From the IMG/VR virus record IMGVR_UViG_3300030102_001687, positions 1-20,343 of that record: a stretch of 20,343 bases of DNA; one strand, given 5' to 3'. Positions 6,744 through 18,215 of the stretch are shown piece after piece. Position numbers and translations under genes: made by a program. The DNA comes from a virus. Below the pieces are notes generated by a model, which did not search any database, was not told where the DNA came from, and was given only the letters and a program-made list of their open reading frames with translations. Every line of letters starts with the position of its first letter. Position 1 is the stretch's first letter.

Positions 6744-9011
6744 TTAATAAATGTTTTGGCTTGAAGTTGGGGGAGTAGTGTTTGGGATTTGGCTTGTCGA
6801 ATAAGTTTGGGCTGTTATATCAACCGAAGCTTCAATCCATTGACCAGACCAAACTCCAGCTTCAGCATTGAACGTCATTTGTTGAGGAACAAAAACTTTC
6901 GAGCCACTTATGTTTGTTGGTGCATTAAAGTACTCATAATCTTTATCTCTTATTGTTCCGTTAAAAATATCGCAAGGAGTTTTTCTTCCAGCCAAAATTT
7001 CTTTTCCTAATATTTTAGAAAGTCTTCCAGTAACTCCGTCTCCAGTTGATTGATGATAAACTTCCCATGTCGAATTTGTTCCATCATCAAAAGTTATAGG
7101 AGTTAAAACACCACCAGAAACGTTAGTTATTACAATAACTTTAGTATTACTCAAAGCCGTTGGACCAGTTCCAAAAAATACTTCTTCAGTTTTTAAAATA
7201 GTGTTTGAAACTGTTGTTCCTTGAGTCGAAGTAAATTCATTAATACTAGTTCCAGACCCGTCCACTACATACCTAAAGAACTCATTTTGGTCATTTATTA
7301 TTGGAAGACCACAAGCAAGTCCGTCTATACCAGTTGGAGTAGCAGCCGTAGAAGTTCCACTTGGAAGCATTGTTCCACTAACATCTATACCAGCAGACGG
7401 TTGGCTTTGAAAACCAGAATAAACCCATTTAAATTGAGCGTAAGCAACTAAAAAAAGTGTTCCGTCTTCTGGAATAGCGTCTAAAGCCGAACCACCAGAA
7501 CCTCCATTTCCAGCAACTGTTGTCCCAGTAATTGCAACTTGATTATTTCCAGCTGGAAACTGGTTCCAAAGTGTATAAAAAGGAAAAGGCCCAGCACATA
7601 TATTTTTTAAATTAGTATTCATTTGACTAGGAACTGAAGGACTAGCGGTAGTTCCCGACTCAATCCATTCATAAACACCAACCGAGCTGTTAGCAGTATA
7701 TGTTAGAGAAGTAGCTGGACCAGACATTCCGATGTAATAATGTTTTCCAGAATCTCCAACTAGTTTCAAATAAGCATTAACAAAACAAGCTAAAGTTTGA
7801 AATGCATTACTAGGAGGAGACCAAGCTTCAGGGTACCCAGTTAAGTCTGGATTTCCAAACCATTTAGGACGGAATTTTAAATTCCATTCAATCCGTGCAT
7901 TCGTAGCCGCTGAAATACTTCCCATATCTCTTTCTAAAGCTGTCCCTATTGTTTTGTGTTGAGTAGCACTTGGAGACCCCCAGTCTGGGACTTCTCCTTT
8001 TACCCAAGTATTCCAAAGAACATAAGGAGTTGAAATAAAGTCCAAATCAAAAAGAAAGTTATAAGGTACAACTACACTTTGAACTGGGGGCAAAGCGTCA
8101 AAAGAACCACCAGTTAAAACGTTGCTTACTGAGTATCTGTAATCTGTTGAATCGGAAGCAATTACGTCATTGTCTTGTTTGTAATAGTCCCTTCTCCATT
8201 GACCGCCACCAGAAGCCATTTGAGTATATGAATTATTTTGAGTAAAGTTCCAACGTCCGTCAGCTAAGAACAATCTAGCCCCCCAAGCTTTACATATTCT
8301 GTCCAAAGCGTCATAAGAACTAATAGTTACTTCAGTTCCGTTTTCAACTTCTCTAAAAGCTCTAAATATGCTACCAGATTGTCTAAGTGGGTCTATGTTA
8401 GAAGCTGGAGTGGGCATATTGTCCGTGTACCAGTTTACCATAGTTCTTAGGAATCTATGACCAGTCCCAGTAGCATTCCAAAAAACAGAACTATCTAAAT
8501 CATTTTTTAAACTTGAAATAATTACATCAACAAAAGGAGTCAAAGTATTTAAAGAAGCGTAAGTTGTATTGTCATCGAGTTTAACATCTACTAACTCAGC
8601 CAGTCCGTCAGTTGCTGTAAAAGTAAAACTTGGGTGCTGTTGGAATGATAAATCTGGATTTGAAGAAACGTCTGAAAGTATATTTCCACACCACCAACGA
8701 GAGTAAGTTGAGCCGTTATCGTCTGACTTATCTATTCTAATTAAGAACCTTCCAAAAGCCGCTCCCTTAATATCTGAAGCCAAAGTTTCATCAGCAACGC
8801 TTGTTGTAACTATATCGAACTCAACGTTGCTAGGAATCAAACCAGTAAACCTTGTTCGGTCCTCAGTTTCATAAGTGAGGTCGAATCCTCTTTTGCTTAA
8901 AGTAAATGTGTCCGAAGAATCTCCAGACAAAGTATTGTCAAATATAATTACTTTATAATGTCTTCCAAGTTCATTTTGAAACTCAGCTGTATTTCTTACA
9001 AAATATCCCAT
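6744..9011 (-). CDS. Large tail-tip / baseplate hub-like protein
   Basis: The 755-aa protein directly follows the tape measure gene, where siphophages encode distal tail and hub proteins. The N-terminus (VRNTAEFQNELGRHYKVIIF ... TLSKRGFDLTYETED, later RFLIRI) looks like a Dit/hub-type beta-rich domain. The segment SSYDALDRICKAWGARLFLA with GRWNF is typical of phage tail-tip proteins that I have seen in Bacteroidota phages. The C-terminal GKEILAGRKTPCDIFNGTIR ... WSGQWIEA pattern also fits. The middle (about 440-640) is low-complexity Gly/Ser/Thr-rich and may carry inserted domains. No separate Dit or Tal gene is present, so this protein probably combines those roles. It is cytoplasmically made and lacks a signal peptide. 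Confidence 0.7.
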   Translation of the reverse strand: MGYFVRNTAEFQNELGRHYKVIIFDNTLSGDSSDTFTLSKRGFDLTYETEDRTRFTGLIPSNVEFDIVTTSVADETLASDIKGAAFGRFLIRIDKSDDNGSTYSRWWCGNILSDVSSNPDLSFQQHPSFTFTATDGLAELVDVKLDDNTTYASLNTLTPFVDVIISSLKNDLDSSVFWNATGTGHRFLRTMVNWYTDNMPTPASNIDPLRQSGSIFRAFREVENGTEVTISSYDALDRICKAWGARLFLADGRWNFTQNNSYTQMASGGGQWRRDYYKQDNDVIASDSTDYRYSVSNVLTGGSFDALPPVQSVVVPYNFLFDLDFISTPYVLWNTWVKGEVPDWGSPSATQHKTIGTALERDMGSISAATNARIEWNLKFRPKWFGNPDLTGYPEAWSPPSNAFQTLACFVNAYLKLVGDSGKHYYIGMSGPATSLTYTANSSVGVYEWIESGTTASPSVPSQMNTNLKNICAGPFPFYTLWNQFPAGNNQVAITGTTVAGNGGSGGSALDAIPEDGTLFLVAYAQFKWVYSGFQSQPSAGIDVSGTMLPSGTSTAATPTGIDGLACGLPIINDQNEFFRYVVDGSGTSINEFTSTQGTTVSNTILKTEEVFFGTGPTALSNTKVIVITNVSGGVLTPITFDDGTNSTWEVYHQSTGDGVTGRLSKILGKEILAGRKTPCDIFNGTIRDKDYEYFNAPTNISGSKVFVPQQMTFNAEAGVWSGQWIEASVDITAQTYSTSQIPNTTPPTSSQNIY

Positions 9012-10873
9012 TAGTTTCCTCTAGTTCTTTTTCTATTCCCTCTAGCCCTATCGCTTGAAAGCAATATGTCCGAACCGCTTATTCTTCCAAAAACTTCCGT
9101 TGAGCCACCTTGATTTAACATTCCTTGAAGTTTGTCTAGCGGTGCAATAACTTCTGGATTAACCATTGAAGTTCCTCGACCTTCTCCAACCATTCCTAAA
9201 GTAGCTCCAGAAACTAAACCCCCTTCAGCAAAAGGAGGAATTATTTTTGCGAATAAACTACCAGCAATAGCACCAGCCGAAGCCGCTAACATTAAGTTCA
9301 CTGGAAAAGGAACAGTAGCAAAAATAGAAGACGCAAAACCAGCCACAGCTTTAGCCGCTTCAACCTTAATTATTTCCCTTGCCGCATTTGCCGCCCCAGC
9401 CGCCATTTCTCCAAGTGAAGCTTCCGAGTTATCAGCCATAGACATAAAAGCACTTCCAGCCACATTAGCTGTTTCTTGCACTTTATTCTTTAAATCTTCA
9501 GCGGCTTGAGTTGCATTTTCAAAATTTTCTTTAATTACTAAAGTAGTTGCTTTTATTAATTCTGGAGCATTTGGGTCTATTTTAGGCATTAAAGTTATTT
9601 CTCTAGCTTCAGTCTTTCTTCCAGTTCCTTTCTGGTCTTCGCTTAATTCTAATGGCTGGAAAGGTTTAAAATTGTTAGTTGTATTCTGTAAATCTTTAAC
9701 AGCCTTAGTAGCTTCGTCAGCCGCATTCGCAGTTTCTTTTAATGGTTCTTCTAGCTTAAAAGGTTCAATTGGTTTTATTTTATTTTGTTCGTCCCTAAAA
9801 AAGTTAAGTCCTTCAATCATTAAATTAAGAGCATTAAGAACTCCATTCGCCATTTTCCTAAAAGCATTTCTAACTTTTATTGCAGTTTCACTAGAAGAAG
9901 TTGCAAAAAACACAATAGCCGCAACCACACCAGCTATTGCGGTAGCAATTAAAACAGCTGGATTAGCCGCCATCATTAAATTAAAAGCTCTTAGAGCCTT
10001 AGTTGCAGTTCCTAAAATACCAACTAATTTTCCAAAAACTACTAAAGTAGGACCTACAACAGCAACAACTCCAGCAACTTGAATAATAGTTTCTTTTTGT
10101 TCGGTGCTTAAATTTCTAAAAAAATCAACTAATTGTTGTCCTTTAGCAATAACTTTAGAAGCAACTGGAAGAAGTAAAGTTCCAAAATCTGTCGCTAGTT
10201 CTTTGACCGATTCAGTTAAAGTTCTGGTGCTGTTAGCAACTCCGTCAGATGTTCTCAAGTAATCTCCTTGAGCGTTTTTAGTTGCTTCAATTATAGCCTT
10301 ATATCTTATTCCAATCTTTTCAGCTTGGCTCATGTTTTTATTATAGCCAAATTGTTTAAGATTAGCTTCAGTCATTACAATACCTAGCTTTTTAAGAGAT
10401 TCAGTTTCTCCAGTAAATATTCCAGCTAAAGCCGTTTGAGCTTGTTCTATTCCAATATTCTTAAATGAAGCTAAGTCTCCAGCTAGTCCTACTAAAGAAG
10501 TGGCCATTCCTCCAGCTTGTTGTTGAGTAAGCCCCATAGAAGTAGCCATATCTCCAAACATTGAAGCCATATCTAAAGCTGAGCCTTCAGCTAGTCCAAA
10601 GTTCTTTAATGTAGTTTTAGCAAATGCTTCAACTTCCGTACTTGATTCTCCAAAAGCAACTCGAGTTTTATTCAATGATTCTTCAAAGTCTGAAGCCATT
10701 TTAACAGAAGCCACAGCCGCCGCCCCAATTGGAAGAGTTAATTTAGTGGACAAAGAAGCTCCAGTTTGAGCCATTTGTTTTCCAAATTTTTTCATTGAAT
10801 TTGAAGCTCTCTTCAATCCAGTTTGAAATTGTTTGTCATCTAAAAATAAGCCAACGGAAAGTCTTTTAGTCAT
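9011..10873 (-). CDS. Tail tape measure protein
   Basis: This 620-aa protein sets tail length. It has the TP901-type core: KFGKQMAQTGASLSTKLTLP, then MASDFEESLNKTRVAFGESS, GDMATSMGLTQQQAGGMATS and DLASFKNIGIEQAQTALAGI (about 30-160). Two hydrophobic segments (about 263-288 and 304-325) and a third near the C-terminus (about 500-545) match membrane-active segments seen in tape measure proteins. The C-terminal FAEGGLVSGATLGMVGEG with ...NPEVIAPLDKL is another frequent tape-measure ending. It overlaps the frameshift product of the tail chaperone gene by 8 bases. By the usual rule of roughly 0.15 nm per residue the tail would be around 90 nm; that is an estimate. No lytic domain is seen. Confidence 0.92.
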   Translation of the reverse strand: MTKRLSVGLFLDDKQFQTGLKRASNSMKKFGKQMAQTGASLSTKLTLPIGAAAVASVKMASDFEESLNKTRVAFGESSTEVEAFAKTTLKNFGLAEGSALDMASMFGDMATSMGLTQQQAGGMATSLVGLAGDLASFKNIGIEQAQTALAGIFTGETESLKKLGIVMTEANLKQFGYNKNMSQAEKIGIRYKAIIEATKNAQGDYLRTSDGVANSTRTLTESVKELATDFGTLLLPVASKVIAKGQQLVDFFRNLSTEQKETIIQVAGVVAVVGPTLVVFGKLVGILGTATKALRAFNLMMAANPAVLIATAIAGVVAAIVFFATSSSETAIKVRNAFRKMANGVLNALNLMIEGLNFFRDEQNKIKPIEPFKLEEPLKETANAADEATKAVKDLQNTTNNFKPFQPLELSEDQKGTGRKTEAREITLMPKIDPNAPELIKATTLVIKENFENATQAAEDLKNKVQETANVAGSAFMSMADNSEASLGEMAAGAANAAREIIKVEAAKAVAGFASSIFATVPFPVNLMLAASAGAIAGSLFAKIIPPFAEGGLVSGATLGMVGEGRGTSMVNPEVIAPLDKLQGMLNQGGSTEVFGRISGSDILLSSDRARGNRKRTRGN

Positions 10874-11225
10874 TTTTCTTTTTTTTGTTTTTTTCTATTG
10901 CTTCGTATTTCTTTTTAGCATATTCCCCTCTCAATTTTCTTTCTTTCAAATTAGTTTTTTTGTCTTTCTTTTCCCATTCAAACTTAATAAGGTCTGTCGG
11001 TTTTATTGACGTTCCTTTCTTTCTATGCGGCTGTAATAATACAGCACAAAGCCACCTTGTCCTCTCCCATTCAAATCTTTCTTTCATTTGAAAAATCTCA
11101 TTTCTTCCCCTTTGCAATAAAAAGAATTCGTGGAATGTTAAGTCCCAAAATTCTTTTGGTAAGATTCCAAAGCCATAAGCAATAGCTTCTAAATCGTCCC
11201 AGTCTATTTGTTTTTGTTGGGAGTT
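10866..11225 (-). CDS. Tail chaperone T extension, made by -1 frameshift as GT
   Basis: This frame has no convincing start of its own; it is open from 11249, just after a TGA at 11250-11252, to the stop at 10866. If ribosomes slip by -1 at the A7 tract (11224-11230), translation of chaperone G continues as NSQQKQIDWDDLEAIAYGFG, then LPKEFWDLTFHEFFLLQRGR and so on for 119 residues, to a Lys-rich end. 'W-D-D-L-E-x-x-A-x-G-x-G-x-x-P-x-E-F-W-x-L-T' is the usual pattern of phage T-type chaperone domains. The GT fusion is about 229 aa. A TTG at 11117 would start too late and drop the conserved part. It ends overlapping the tape measure start, as in lambda and many other siphophages. Confidence 0.82.
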   Translation of the reverse strand, partial: NSQQKQIDWDDLEAIAYGFGILPKEFWDLTFHEFFLLQRGRNEIFQMKERFEWERTRWLCAVLLQPHRKKGTSIKPTDLIKFEWEKKDKKTNLKERKLRGEYAKKKYEAIEKNKKKKND

Positions 11226-11554
11226 TTTTTCTCCCTCTTTGCGTTTCCCTCAGAATTGAATTTAGCTGAGAATTGTTCAGTAAACACATTTAAACATTTT
11301 TGTAAAGCTTCAAAGTCTTCGTCTAAAATGTCTGTTAAGTCATCAATTGTTAAAGTGAATTCTTTTCCAGCAACCCTTGAGCCGTCTCTAAGTCCAGCAA
11401 ACATAAGCTGAACAGCGTCATCTAAGCTCATATCTTGTCCTAGTTTTTGCAAATCGTTTAAGCTTCGATTTGTTTGTTTACAATAAATTCTAAGAGCGTT
11501 CATTCCAAATCTAATTGGATAATCTTTTTTATTAAGTATTACTACCTCAAACAT
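11204..11554 (-). CDS. Tail assembly chaperone G
   Basis: The 116-aa protein sits between the major tail protein and the tape measure gene, the fixed location of tail assembly chaperones. The N-terminal FGMNALRIYCKQTNRSLNDL and the following DDAVQLMFAGLRDGSRVAGK, then LTIDDLTDILDED, fit the small helical chaperone family. It ends in a Lys/Asn tail after an A7 tract in frame as AAA-AAA-ACT, where a -1 shift fuses it to the T domain. The chaperone would coat the tape measure protein in the cytoplasm while the tail tube polymerises. Its start is 2 bases from the 3' arm of an 8-bp inverted repeat (11556-11563), so its initiation may be controlled by RNA structure. Confidence 0.85.
   Translation of the reverse strand: MFEVVILNKKDYPIRFGMNALRIYCKQTNRSLNDLQKLGQDMSLDDAVQLMFAGLRDGSRVAGKEFTLTIDDLTDILDEDFEALQKCLNVFTEQFSAKFNSEGNAKREKKTPNKNK
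11224..11231 (-). other. Slippery site for -1 frameshift in tail chaperone
   Basis: On the minus strand the sequence is G followed by seven A residues, read in the G frame as AAA-AAA-ACT. It lies inside the only window (11204-11249) in which both the G and T frames are open. Slippage by -1 changes the next codon from ACT to AAC and enters the T frame. The heptamer G-AAA-AAA is not a perfect X-XXY-YYZ, so single-tRNA slippage or polymerase slippage on A7 are also possible. Confidence 0.75.
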
Positions 11555-11619: not shown

Positions 11620-12057
11620 TTAAATATCATTCTTAGTTAAAGCACCGCTTCCTTGAATACTTACTGAATAAGTAGGAGCGTCTTCAACACCACCAGAAAC
11701 TGAAAGAGCTGTTATAATTCCACTTCCAGAAAAAGTGTAATCTCCAGAAGCCGTTGTAGCTAAAGTGAAAGTAAATGTTACAGCTGTTCTATTTGTATAA
11801 CCTTGAACAAATAATTCGTCAAACTCCGTATTAGCCGCAGTTGTTGGATTGAAGTCCATTAAGCCATCTGAGCTTAAAGAGAATGAAGTTAAACCAGCTA
11901 GAAGTTCTTGTCTTCCAGAGGAGTCTTTTGTAGTTATATCTATTGTGTCCATTGACACATCTAAGCTAACGGATTGTGAGTGCATTAATTTTGCGTCACT
12001 TCCACCAGCACTTGGACTTACTTTTAATATTAAGTCCGTTCCATTAAAAATCGCCAT
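11620..12057 (-). CDS. Major tail tube protein
   Basis: The 145-aa protein is a TP901-1-type tail tube subunit: MAIFNGTDLILKVSPSAGGS, the internal VSLDVSMDTIDITTKDSSGR followed by QELLAGLTSFSLSSDGLMDF, and the C-terminal GSGIITALSVSGGVEDAPTY with VSIQGSGAL. 'I-D-I-T-T-K-D-S-x-G' and 'G-x-x-x-x-S-x-S-x-x-G-x-x-D-F' are typical of this family, which stacks as hexamers to form the tail tube. It should be among the most abundant virion proteins. The leader is A/T-rich without a Shine-Dalgarno sequence. A stable hairpin follows 4 bases after its stop. Confidence 0.9.
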   Translation of the reverse strand: MAIFNGTDLILKVSPSAGGSDAKLMHSQSVSLDVSMDTIDITTKDSSGRQELLAGLTSFSLSSDGLMDFNPTTAANTEFDELFVQGYTNRTAVTFTFTLATTASGDYTFSGSGIITALSVSGGVEDAPTYSVSIQGSGALTKNDI

Positions 12058-15376: not shown

Positions 15377-17029
15377 TTACTTTTTGTTTATGATTGACAA
15401 TCGTAACTCTCTTAAATTACGTTTGATTAAATCCAAATCCTCTCTCTCTCTTTCTTCCTTCTCTTTTTTTAGGTTCTCTTTGAAAACCTTATTTTCTTCT
15501 TCTTTTTTCCATTTGTCCATTGAACGTAAAGCCACCGAAGCTTCTTCGTAAGCTGGGTAAGTTACAGCTGAAACGTCATATAATCTAGACACTTTGTTTA
15601 TTGTTCTTATATTAACTCCGTCCTTAACCTCCCATGAATCATCATCAACTACGAAAGCGAATGAACTTTGATTGATAGTTCCGTTTCTCATTAACTCTAA
15701 TAAGTCGCGACCTAAAGAAGTGTTCGCCACTTTTGCTTCATATCTCAAACCAGTTTCATCTGTTGTAAGTCTAAGAGTGTCATTTGTTGTTCTAGCTAAA
15801 GGCAAACCTTCATGATTTATTAAGAATCTAACATCATCATTTAAACGTCCTTCAAAAGCGTCTGGAGAAATAATTTCTTTGAAGTTTCCTAAGTCATTGG
15901 AAAGAGTATTAAATACACTAGCGTAACCAACAACCACGTTAGAATCTCCTTCTTCTCTTAGCTCTAAGTTTTGAACGTTGAATGTTCTAACTTCTTTATT
16001 AGGATTTGAACGATATCCCATTGGCTTTTCTTCTTCTTCTTCGTGTCCTTCGATATGTTCGTTTTCTTCCATATCGTCTTCGTCTTCTTTATTCATTACA
16101 GCCATAATTTCTTCATGAGAACCAAACGGCATAAAAACAGTTTGTCCGTTAAGAGTATGTTCATGCGAAAGGTTTTCTCCTTCAGCTCCCATTTCCTTAG
16201 CCATTTCTTCAGCTTCTTCTTTCGTTGTAAATAAAGGCATTTCGATTCCATCTGTAATCATTGAACCGATTAATTCTCTTTTTACTTTTTCCATAATTTT
16301 AATTTTATTTTCTTCCATATCTTTTTTTACTGGATGATTATTCGGAAGCAAATCTGTATCATGTTTACCGCCTTGAAACCTTCCTTTTTTTAATGCAAAC
16401 AAAAATGAATTAACGCGTGAATAGGCCCACTGGTCTGGTCCACTTACATTAGGACGAACGCTTTCTGGATTGCTTTTATAAGCTCCTAAGCCCCTTTCAA
16501 ACACTTCCAATAAAGTTTTGTAAGTAACTCTCGGATTCCATGCAACGTCTAAATCCTTTACTTCTTCATTATGTTTTTCAACTTTGTTTTCTAAACCTTT
16601 TTGAATAGTAGCATTGACTTGCCTATCGTCTTTCTTACCTTCTAATTTTTTAGTCAATTCTAATATTACGTCTTTCATTCCTTGTTCTCCTAAAGTTCCA
16701 ATTACACCCCATTTCATTTGAGCAACTACTCCAGCCACATTTGAAAGGTTTGGTTCTAAGTCTTTTTTAAATTGTTTTCCGTCTTCAAAATGTCTAGCCA
16801 CCCAAGCTTCTCTTTCCTTAATCCATTTTAAAACACCTTCAGTTTCTTCTCCAGCTCTAGCTTTTTTCCATAAGTTAAAAGCTTCGTTTCCTCTTATATT
16901 TCCTCCAGCTTTCCAAATTTCTGGAGTTTGTTCTTTGACATTATTAGCAAAGTCAAAATCAAATTGAGGATGATTGCTGTTCCTTAAACTAATTTTTTTG
17001 TCTTCTCCTTTAGTTGGAAAATTAGTCAT
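15377..17029 (-). CDS. Prohead protease with about 340 extra N-terminal residues
   Basis: I place the start at ATG 17029, which overlaps the portal stop by 8 bases (550 aa), instead of an upstream start at 17065. Residues 344-505 are the HK97 prohead protease: VVVGYASVFNTLSNDLGNFK, INHEGLPLART (likely catalytic H406), NQSSFAFVVDDD (likely S456), and SRLYDVSAVTYPAYEEASVA. Usual family members are about 200 aa. Ahead lie three distinct blocks: about 36-130 (GNIRGNEAFNLWKKARAG, WIKEREAWVARHF, NVAGVVAQMKWGVIG), about 167-232 (VFERGLGAYKSNPESVRP, WAYSRVNSFL, DTDLLPNNHP), and about 264-312 (LFTTKEEAEEMAKEMGAEG ... HEH ... GQTVFMPFGSHEE), then a Glu/Asp-rich linker. The C-terminal 45 residues are a Lys/Glu coiled coil. 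The protease matures the prohead by cutting the delta domain; the extra blocks may be scaffold or injected internal proteins. Confidence 0.85.
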   Translation of the reverse strand: MTNFPTKGEDKKISLRNSNHPQFDFDFANNVKEQTPEIWKAGGNIRGNEAFNLWKKARAGEETEGVLKWIKEREAWVARHFEDGKQFKKDLEPNLSNVAGVVAQMKWGVIGTLGEQGMKDVILELTKKLEGKKDDRQVNATIQKGLENKVEKHNEEVKDLDVAWNPRVTYKTLLEVFERGLGAYKSNPESVRPNVSGPDQWAYSRVNSFLFALKKGRFQGGKHDTDLLPNNHPVKKDMEENKIKIMEKVKRELIGSMITDGIEMPLFTTKEEAEEMAKEMGAEGENLSHEHTLNGQTVFMPFGSHEEIMAVMNKEDEDDMEENEHIEGHEEEEEKPMGYRSNPNKEVRTFNVQNLELREEGDSNVVVGYASVFNTLSNDLGNFKEIISPDAFEGRLNDDVRFLINHEGLPLARTTNDTLRLTTDETGLRYEAKVANTSLGRDLLELMRNGTINQSSFAFVVDDDSWEVKDGVNIRTINKVSRLYDVSAVTYPAYEEASVALRSMDKWKKEEENKVFKENLKKEKEEREREDLDLIKRNLRELRLSIINKK

Positions 17030-18215
17030 TGCTTTCCTCAGTATTTGTTTGTCCAATTGGAGCAAAGTTTAATGGGAAATAATGTTTATCTCCGTCTTCT
17101 ATTTTATTTAACTTTTCAGCTTGTCTAACTTCGTTGATTGACAAAGCTCCGATTTGTGTCATCTCTCTATAATAAGTAGCTCTAGCCGTTGAATCCCCTC
17201 TTAATAATCCGTTAGTATTAAATTTGATTTCATAAGAATCCATTTCATTTTCTCTAAATAATTTCATTTCCATTTCTTGTTCTAATTGAACTAAGTAAGG
17301 CATAAGAGTATAACGAACAAAGTCAGTTGAAAGAGCTTCAATAGAATTGTAATTAGCCGCCTTTTCTAAGTGTCCAATTAAAGACAAAGGAACTCTAAAA
17401 ATTCTAGCTATTTCTTCAACTTGAAATTGTCTAGATTGAAGAAGCTGTTTGTCTTGAGCATTTATTGTAATCGGTTTAAAGTCTAATCCGTTTTCTAAAA
17501 TAGCTGTCTTATTAGAATTATATGGTCCTTGATAACGTTGATTCCAAGAATTTCTTAGTCTTTGAATTTGCTCAGTTGTTAAAGTCTGGTCTGTTTTTAA
17601 AACCCCAGCAACTTGAGCCGAATTTCCAAAATAAGTTGCCGCTGTAACGTTAGCACCCAACGAAAGTCCGATTGTATCTTGTTGCATTTTAAGAACAGAC
17701 TTTCCTTTTTTTCCGTCAAAACCAACTCCCATAAAATGAAGAATGTCAGTTTGGGGAATAGGATTTTCAAACTCTCCATGCTCATAAAATAAGTTCCCTT
17801 CAAAAGGAATAACTTTAACATGGTCTGGATTCAAATATAATAACTCAATCGGTCTAGCTGAGCCGTCTCTTACTATATAGAAATAACAATTGCCTTCTAA
17901 CAAAAGATTAGTTAAAGCAACTGAAAAAAAGTTGTAAGTAGTTTGAAACTTGTTAGGTCTTTGAATCAATCTAGCGACTGGATGTGCCTTGTCCAAAATC
18001 CTATCTCCGTCTTCTTCAATTTTATAAGTGTTAATCGGCATTGAAGCAATAGATTCTGAGATAACTCTCACACAAGCTAGGACAGCCGAAAAGGAAAGAG
18101 CTGAATTTTTATCTACTGAAACTCCAGAATTTGACCCAAATAAAGGAGAATTAACTCTCAAAAAAGTGTTCCCGTTATCTCTTTTTTCCGAACGGAAGAA
18201 ATCTAGTAATCCCAT
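17022..18215 (-). CDS. Portal protein, HK97 family
   Basis: The 397-aa protein shows the HK97 portal pattern: MGLLDFFRSEKRDNGN, then ALSFSAVLACVRVISESIAS with MPINTYK, PNKFQTTYNFFSVALTNLLL, GNCYFYIVRDG, and DILHFMGVGFDGKKGKSVLK. The second half has QFQVEEIARIFRVPLSLIGH, EKAANYNSIEALSTDFVRYT and LMPYLVQLEQEMEMKLF. Twelve copies form the channel for DNA entry and the site for terminase and connector docking. Length is normal for the family. It starts 40 bases after the large terminase gene, with a TATCTTTG box just upstream. Its last codons contain the start of the protease gene. Confidence 0.94.
   Translation of the reverse strand: MGLLDFFRSEKRDNGNTFLRVNSPLFGSNSGVSVDKNSALSFSAVLACVRVISESIASMPINTYKIEEDGDRILDKAHPVARLIQRPNKFQTTYNFFSVALTNLLLEGNCYFYIVRDGSARPIELLYLNPDHVKVIPFEGNLFYEHGEFENPIPQTDILHFMGVGFDGKKGKSVLKMQQDTIGLSLGANVTAATYFGNSAQVAGVLKTDQTLTTEQIQRLRNSWNQRYQGPYNSNKTAILENGLDFKPITINAQDKQLLQSRQFQVEEIARIFRVPLSLIGHLEKAANYNSIEALSTDFVRYTLMPYLVQLEQEMEMKLFRENEMDSYEIKFNTNGLLRGDSTARATYYREMTQIGALSINEVRQAEKLNKIEDGDKHYFPLNFAPIGQTNTEESND

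Follow-up and report, generated by a model that had tools for sequence, protein, structure and literature searches.

Frameshifting in the tail chaperone genes of phages is well known. In phage lambda the slip site of the gene pair G/GT is G GGA AAG, and to our knowledge no stimulatory structure has been established there. The lambda G protein binds the tape measure, and T recruits the tail tube protein (PMC5009743). For the g-t pair of the haloarchaeal virus HCTV-1, the site is given as G_GGA_AAC in PMC5009743, which cites Sencilo 2013. The locus described here has the same genes, the same gene order, the same frame relation and the same first six heptamer bases as lambda. Unlike in lambda, however, the last base of the heptamer (Z) is C, not G, across nearly the whole family, and a covarying hairpin follows. 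With HCTV-1, as cited there, it shares the identical heptamer and the gene pair, but the HCTV-1 host is archaeal. With the E. coli dnaX and IS-type signals it has in common the heptamer, a spacer in the range of 5-8 nt and a simple hairpin (PMC4066793, PMC3711429); dnaX, in contrast, has an upstream Shine-Dalgarno-like stimulator, and none is conserved at the junctions of this phage family.

The window, i.e., the entire stretch of DNA analysed, is the 20,343-base virus record IMGVR_UViG_3300030102_001687. Its tail genes are on the minus strand in the order major tail protein, G, GT and tape measure. The gene of the major tail protein (11620..12057; PF06199, E 3e-14; phrog_1407, E 6e-23) lies directly upstream of G, and between it and the tape measure gene (9011..10873; phrog_1535, E 8e-34) sit two overlapping open reading frames. 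Gene G (11204..11554, stop included) is the zero frame and encodes a putative tail assembly chaperone of 116 aa. The T frame (10866..11249) is -1 relative to G and would provide the C-terminal part of GT. Its stop overlaps the ATG of the tape measure gene by 8 nt (10866-10873, minus strand; ATGACTAA), which suggests coupled translation.

The sequence-only reading of the window had proposed that G is joined to T by a programmed -1 frameshift, and this proposal has stood. The T pattern, DWDDLEAIAYGFG...KEFWDLT, is indeed readable in the -1 frame only, which is open from 11249 to its stop at 10868-10866. In all loci in which both domains were found (220/220), the T frame is -1 relative to G and the two overlap. 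A programmed -1 frameshift yielding G and GT is thus strongly supported by sequence comparison. The only stretch open in both frames is 11249-11204; as had been noted, it contains G-AAA-AAA-A, and the expected sizes, 116 aa for G and 229 aa for GT, come out with either of the slip sites discussed below. Split into codons of the zero frame, the overlap is TCT GAG GGA AAC GCA AAG AGG GAG AAA AAA ACT CCC AAC AAA AAC AAA TAG.

Relatives were gathered by scans with G, with T and with profiles of both, which yielded hundreds of viral contigs. Some contigs were fetched repeatedly; counting each distinct sequence once, the overlaps number 81 and the 60-nt junctions 86. Five of the latter are distant Bacteroidales loci, and the remaining 81 make up the family set for the heptamer counts. 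Codon and hairpin tests were performed on 23 genomes dereplicated at 85%.

The likeness of both proteins to known tail assembly chaperones is remote, yet supportive. Among the T relatives, 12/13 aligned members match PF09550 (Phage_TAC_6, tail assembly chaperone; best E 3e-4), while the window's own T reaches E 0.016, under the curated cut-off. The relatives of G match phrog_2115, which is annotated as tail protein. An AlphaFold model of the window's G (pLDDT 81, pTM 0.74; residues 102-116 disordered, with pLDDT under 50) finds as its best viral-model match in BFVD a predicted tail assembly chaperone (E 5e-6). Its best match among solved structures is the HK97 tail assembly chaperone 2ob9, with Z 4.8 over 78 residues and the next row at 3.0; a Z under 8 is weak if taken alone. 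A sequence search of solved structures with G gave no convincing match, nor did Foldseek alone with the G and T models. A chaperone role of G and GT would fit these matches.

A complete heptamer of the X_XXY_YYZ type, G GGA AAC (11249-11243), stands at the very start of the stretch open in both frames, directly behind the TGA of the T frame (11250..11252), which is the upstream limit of the shift window. Its zero frame reads GGA AAC, its -1 frame GGG AAA. It is the sole heptamer of this type in the overlap, and GGGAAAC occurs once in the whole record. G GGA AAC is kept in 79/81 distinct family sequences. The two exceptions have other heptamers at the equivalent place: G GGA AAG in L041, which is exactly that of lambda, and in L215 the A AAA AAG of dnaX, there too with the family hairpin. 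No other block of the region is as well conserved as the eight bases GGGAAACG. On a tree built from the G and T cores, with the overlap left out, the heptamer changes twice, a rough count like all those from this tree, since many of its branches are weakly supported.

The conservation of the heptamer exceeds what the protein demands. Among about 45 degenerate codons of G with a conserved amino acid in the 23 genomes, only the GGA and AAC of the heptamer are free of synonymous change: GGA is used in 23/23 and AAC in 22/23, the remaining one being AAG. In the five other invariant glycine codons of G the commonest codon accounts for just 39-70%. The disorder of residues 102-116 in the model argues against a structural cause. 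The T frame reads the heptamer bases too, and some dual-coding constraint is possible; other conserved codons within the overlap do vary.

Behind the heptamer of the window follow a spacer, GCAAAGA (11236..11242; 7 nt), and a predicted hairpin, GGGAG-AAAAAAA-CUCCC (11219..11235; predicted -7.7 kcal/mol). The spacer has 6 nt in most relatives and 5 in L041 and L215, and the family range of 5-7 nt fits the usual distance of 5-8 nt between heptamer and structure (PMC4066793). Taken by itself, the hairpin of the window has no significant advantage in stability over shuffled sequence (z -0.9), and the case for it rests on the relatives. A stem-loop beginning 5-7 nt after the heptamer folds in 23/23 dereplicated sequences. 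A 5-bp stem free of mismatches at +6 or +7 is present in 21/23 sequences, versus a mean of 0.10 (maximum 2) expected from 2,000 codon shuffles. In control windows elsewhere in G the rate of perfect stems is 3.9%.

The stems of the relatives differ widely in sequence. Examples are GAGGAG-A7-CTCCTC, GAGGTG-AAGAAAA-CACCTC, GCCAC-GAAGAAA-GTGGC, GCTCC-GAAA-GGAGC, GCCGC-n13-GCGGC, GGGAGC-AAGAAA-GCTCCC and AGGGG-A8-CCCCT. A full-junction alignment by MAFFT came out ungapped, with the 3' arms out of register. A covariance model of the window's subclade found the element in relatives, but misaligned the far classes; the pairs were therefore counted on a hand-registered set from which the loops had been removed so that the arms align. 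In this set the four central stem pairs are standard in all cells but one of 120, with three or four pair types each and swaps that include G-C to C-G. This tally takes the best stem per sequence and is biased to finding pairs, a bias for which the codon shuffles above allow. One stem pair is broken in L128. The covariation score is 0.844 against 0.174±0.032 for shuffled sets (reached in 0/500), and it drops to 0.18-0.33 once the partner is slid; two further measures, based on the number of pairs or of pair types, gave no excess over the shuffles (53/500 and 270/500). By the same rough count on the protein tree, the stem was altered at least 18 times and still pairs. Probably, the predicted role of the hairpin is to stimulate the slip.

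The A7 run (11224..11230), which the sequence-only reading had named as the slip site, lies 12 nt downstream of G GGA AAC and is the variable loop of this predicted, covarying hairpin. Loops of the relatives measure 4-13 nt and consist mostly of A and G; a pure A7 is found in a minority. In most relatives the run is interrupted or missing, as in GTG AAG AAA ACA, AGC AAG AAA GCT, ACG AAG AAA GTG or CCG AAA GGA. Within the 30 nt past the heptamer the longest A run is 3 nt in 34 of the 81 sequences, 4-6 nt in 25 and 7-8 nt in 22. The A7-loop state changes 7 times on the tree, again roughly counted.

These data bear on several explanations. That the ribosome shifts -1 on the A7 itself, at G AAA AAA, agrees with the position of the run within the stretch open in both frames and with the A9 tracts at the junctions of distant gut Bacteroidales relatives. 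G AAA AAA, however, is not of the X_XXY_YYZ type, most members lack the tract or have it interrupted by G (longest run 3-6 nt in 59/81), and it varies in the manner of a hairpin loop. Relatives without the A7 led us to reject it as the slip site, and a shift there appears highly improbable. The earlier reading had named related phages with no slippery tract in the T frame as evidence that would refute it; by this test the A7 fails and G GGA AAC passes. An RNA polymerase that adds an A at the A7, so that an altered mRNA would encode GT, is more improbable still. A runs can be slippery for the polymerase, but seven A fall below An with n>7 (PMC3711429), and the mechanism would be better suited to the A9 tracts of the gut relatives. 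A run of at least 7 A is present at the junction in 22/81 sequences, so the conserved long homopolymer expected for polymerase slippage is not found; the run is lost among relatives though GT is kept, and the conservation of heptamer and stem would be left unexplained.

A combination is also conceivable, in which the A7-bearing subclade uses G GGA AAC as its main site and the A7 of the loop adds a little. A7 loops recur within the window's subclade. Such a second site is, however, not needed, the hairpin must already be open when the A7 is decoded, and downstream of the A7 no second conserved structure was found, only A-rich sequence; we regard the combination as improbable. Finally, T might have a start of its own and be translated separately from G. 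The sequence-only reading had seen no usable start upstream of T, and the wider set bears this out: ahead of the T core the T frame of the window has no ATG, GTG or TTG, and ATG, GTG, TTG or CTG occur there in 0/215 loci having a recognisable T core, on which count an independent start was rejected. In-frame ATA or ATT codons do precede the core in many of the 215 loci, ATA in the window among them, but a separate T would leave heptamer and hairpin unexplained, and we give this possibility practically no credence. Most likely, then, the slip would take place at the conserved GGGAAAC and not at the A7, which is not conserved in the relatives. The suggestion that the heptamer is imperfect and the mechanism open, perhaps special to Bacteroidota, is unneeded in the window, although a version of it, with A9 tracts, does occur in distant gut relatives. 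The locus cautions that the longest A run need not be where the ribosome slips.

The best explanation as a whole, which we hold to be very probably correct, is a -1 slip at G GGA AAC that is aided by the hairpin and yields G and GT. Ribosomes translating gene G would arrive at G GGA AAC, where the hairpin starting 7 nt beyond the heptamer would slow them. A minority would slip back by one base in tandem, tRNA-Gly then pairing with GGG instead of GGA and tRNA-Asn with AAA instead of AAC. The slipped ribosomes would continue in the T frame to make GT of 229 aa, and the others would terminate at 116 aa to make G. Judging from lambda, the two products, present in unequal amounts, would cover the tape measure protein and bring in the tail tube protein. 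The frame relation, the lack of a standard T start, the conservation of the heptamer, the covariation of the hairpin and the gene order are seen in the sequence and its comparison; that slippage occurs, how efficient it is, that the hairpin stimulates it, and the chaperone role, we infer. The anatomy of the signal, with heptamer, spacer and stem-loop, is that of a textbook -1 signal; the kind is known, the family is new. It is a large family with a complete signal defined comparatively, by a near-invariant heptamer and a stem often replaced by compensating changes.

With the shift at the heptamer, the predicted GT fusion (10866..11554, minus strand) would comprise residues 1-104 of G followed by R-K-E-G-E-K-N-S-Q-Q-K..., i.e., ...FNSEGN-RKEGEKNSQQKQIDWDD..., 229 aa in total. 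Slippage at the A7 would lead to the same total, but the junction would read AKREKK-NSQQK. Because the lengths are the same and the junctions differ, the tryptic peptide FNSEGNR distinguishes a slip at the heptamer (...FNSEGNR|K...) from one at the A7; the contrary reading would be ...EGNAKREKKNSQQK.

The A-site codon deserves a comment. High slippage in E. coli requires the final base of this codon to belong to the same class, purine or pyrimidine, as the others, and a move from AAC to AAA is tolerated less by E. coli than by eukaryotic ribosomes (PMC4066793). In the A site of E. coli ribosomes AAC slips poorly (PMC4066793, PMC5009743), whereas G_GGA_AAC is among the shiftiest heptamers of mammalian systems (PMC5009743). 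A near-fixed AAC in a family of bacterial phages is therefore notable. It may reflect a different slip rule in the hosts, or a low rate may simply be wanted. That the ribosomes of the hosts, which are probably Bacteroidota, slip efficiently on AAC like mammalian ribosomes and unlike those of E. coli is a tentative idea and rather unlikely. If true, the match in base class would not be general among bacterial slip codons, and the family would have evolved under a different slip rule, with a hairpin and without a Shine-Dalgarno stimulator. With G GGA AAC nearly fixed, the family lends itself to a direct test of whether the slip rules of E. coli hold in other bacteria.

The probable assignment of the host to the phylum Bacteroidota is based on distant homologues in Bacteroides and Cellulophaga phages and on the starts of the window, most of which are A-rich and lack Shine-Dalgarno motifs, as is typical of Bacteroidia (PMC8710568). 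Searches with G and the major tail protein gave no phage-isolate match, and the matches of terminase and tape measure do not converge on one host. Of 395 genomes sampled from the phylum to which the Parabacteroides genome belongs, just 3 matched T, which leaves few named hosts.

The gut Bacteroidales relatives (Bacuni_F1 and others) share homologous G and T proteins and the -1 relation, but differ in the shift signal. In contigs of this type (L312-L374; also L061, L062, L143 and L145) an A9 run is present at 34/39 distinct G/T junctions, mostly as GAA AAA AAA A in largely fixed register, and the hairpin of the window's type is absent from the gut Bacteroidales loci checked. At these junctions either polymerase or ribosome slippage may operate; the idea of an A-run slip fits them better than the window. 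In two contigs, L331 and L361, the run is an A8, not an A9, and T lies in the +1/-2 frame; this may stem from misassembly, or it may point to slippage by the polymerase or to one that is indifferent to direction. In Cellulophaga phage phi39:1 (L063, 2583-3309) the G and T homologues, gp19 and gp20, are split, and a +1 or -2 shift would be needed at an A8; their neighbours are annotated from virion mass spectrometry, gp19 and gp20 are not. In a Parabacteroides prophage (L144, about 2465-2507) T is in the -1 frame, with no recognisable slippery heptamer at the junction (GTG GGG GAG CCC).

Elsewhere on the minus strand of the window, a portal-like open reading frame and the next one overlap by 44 nt (17022-17065); the latter looks protease-like by eye and would have 562 aa if it starts at a TTG. 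At 280-717, again on the minus strand, an open reading frame of 145 aa has one stretch that resembles, by eye, the DNA-binding end of DnaA.
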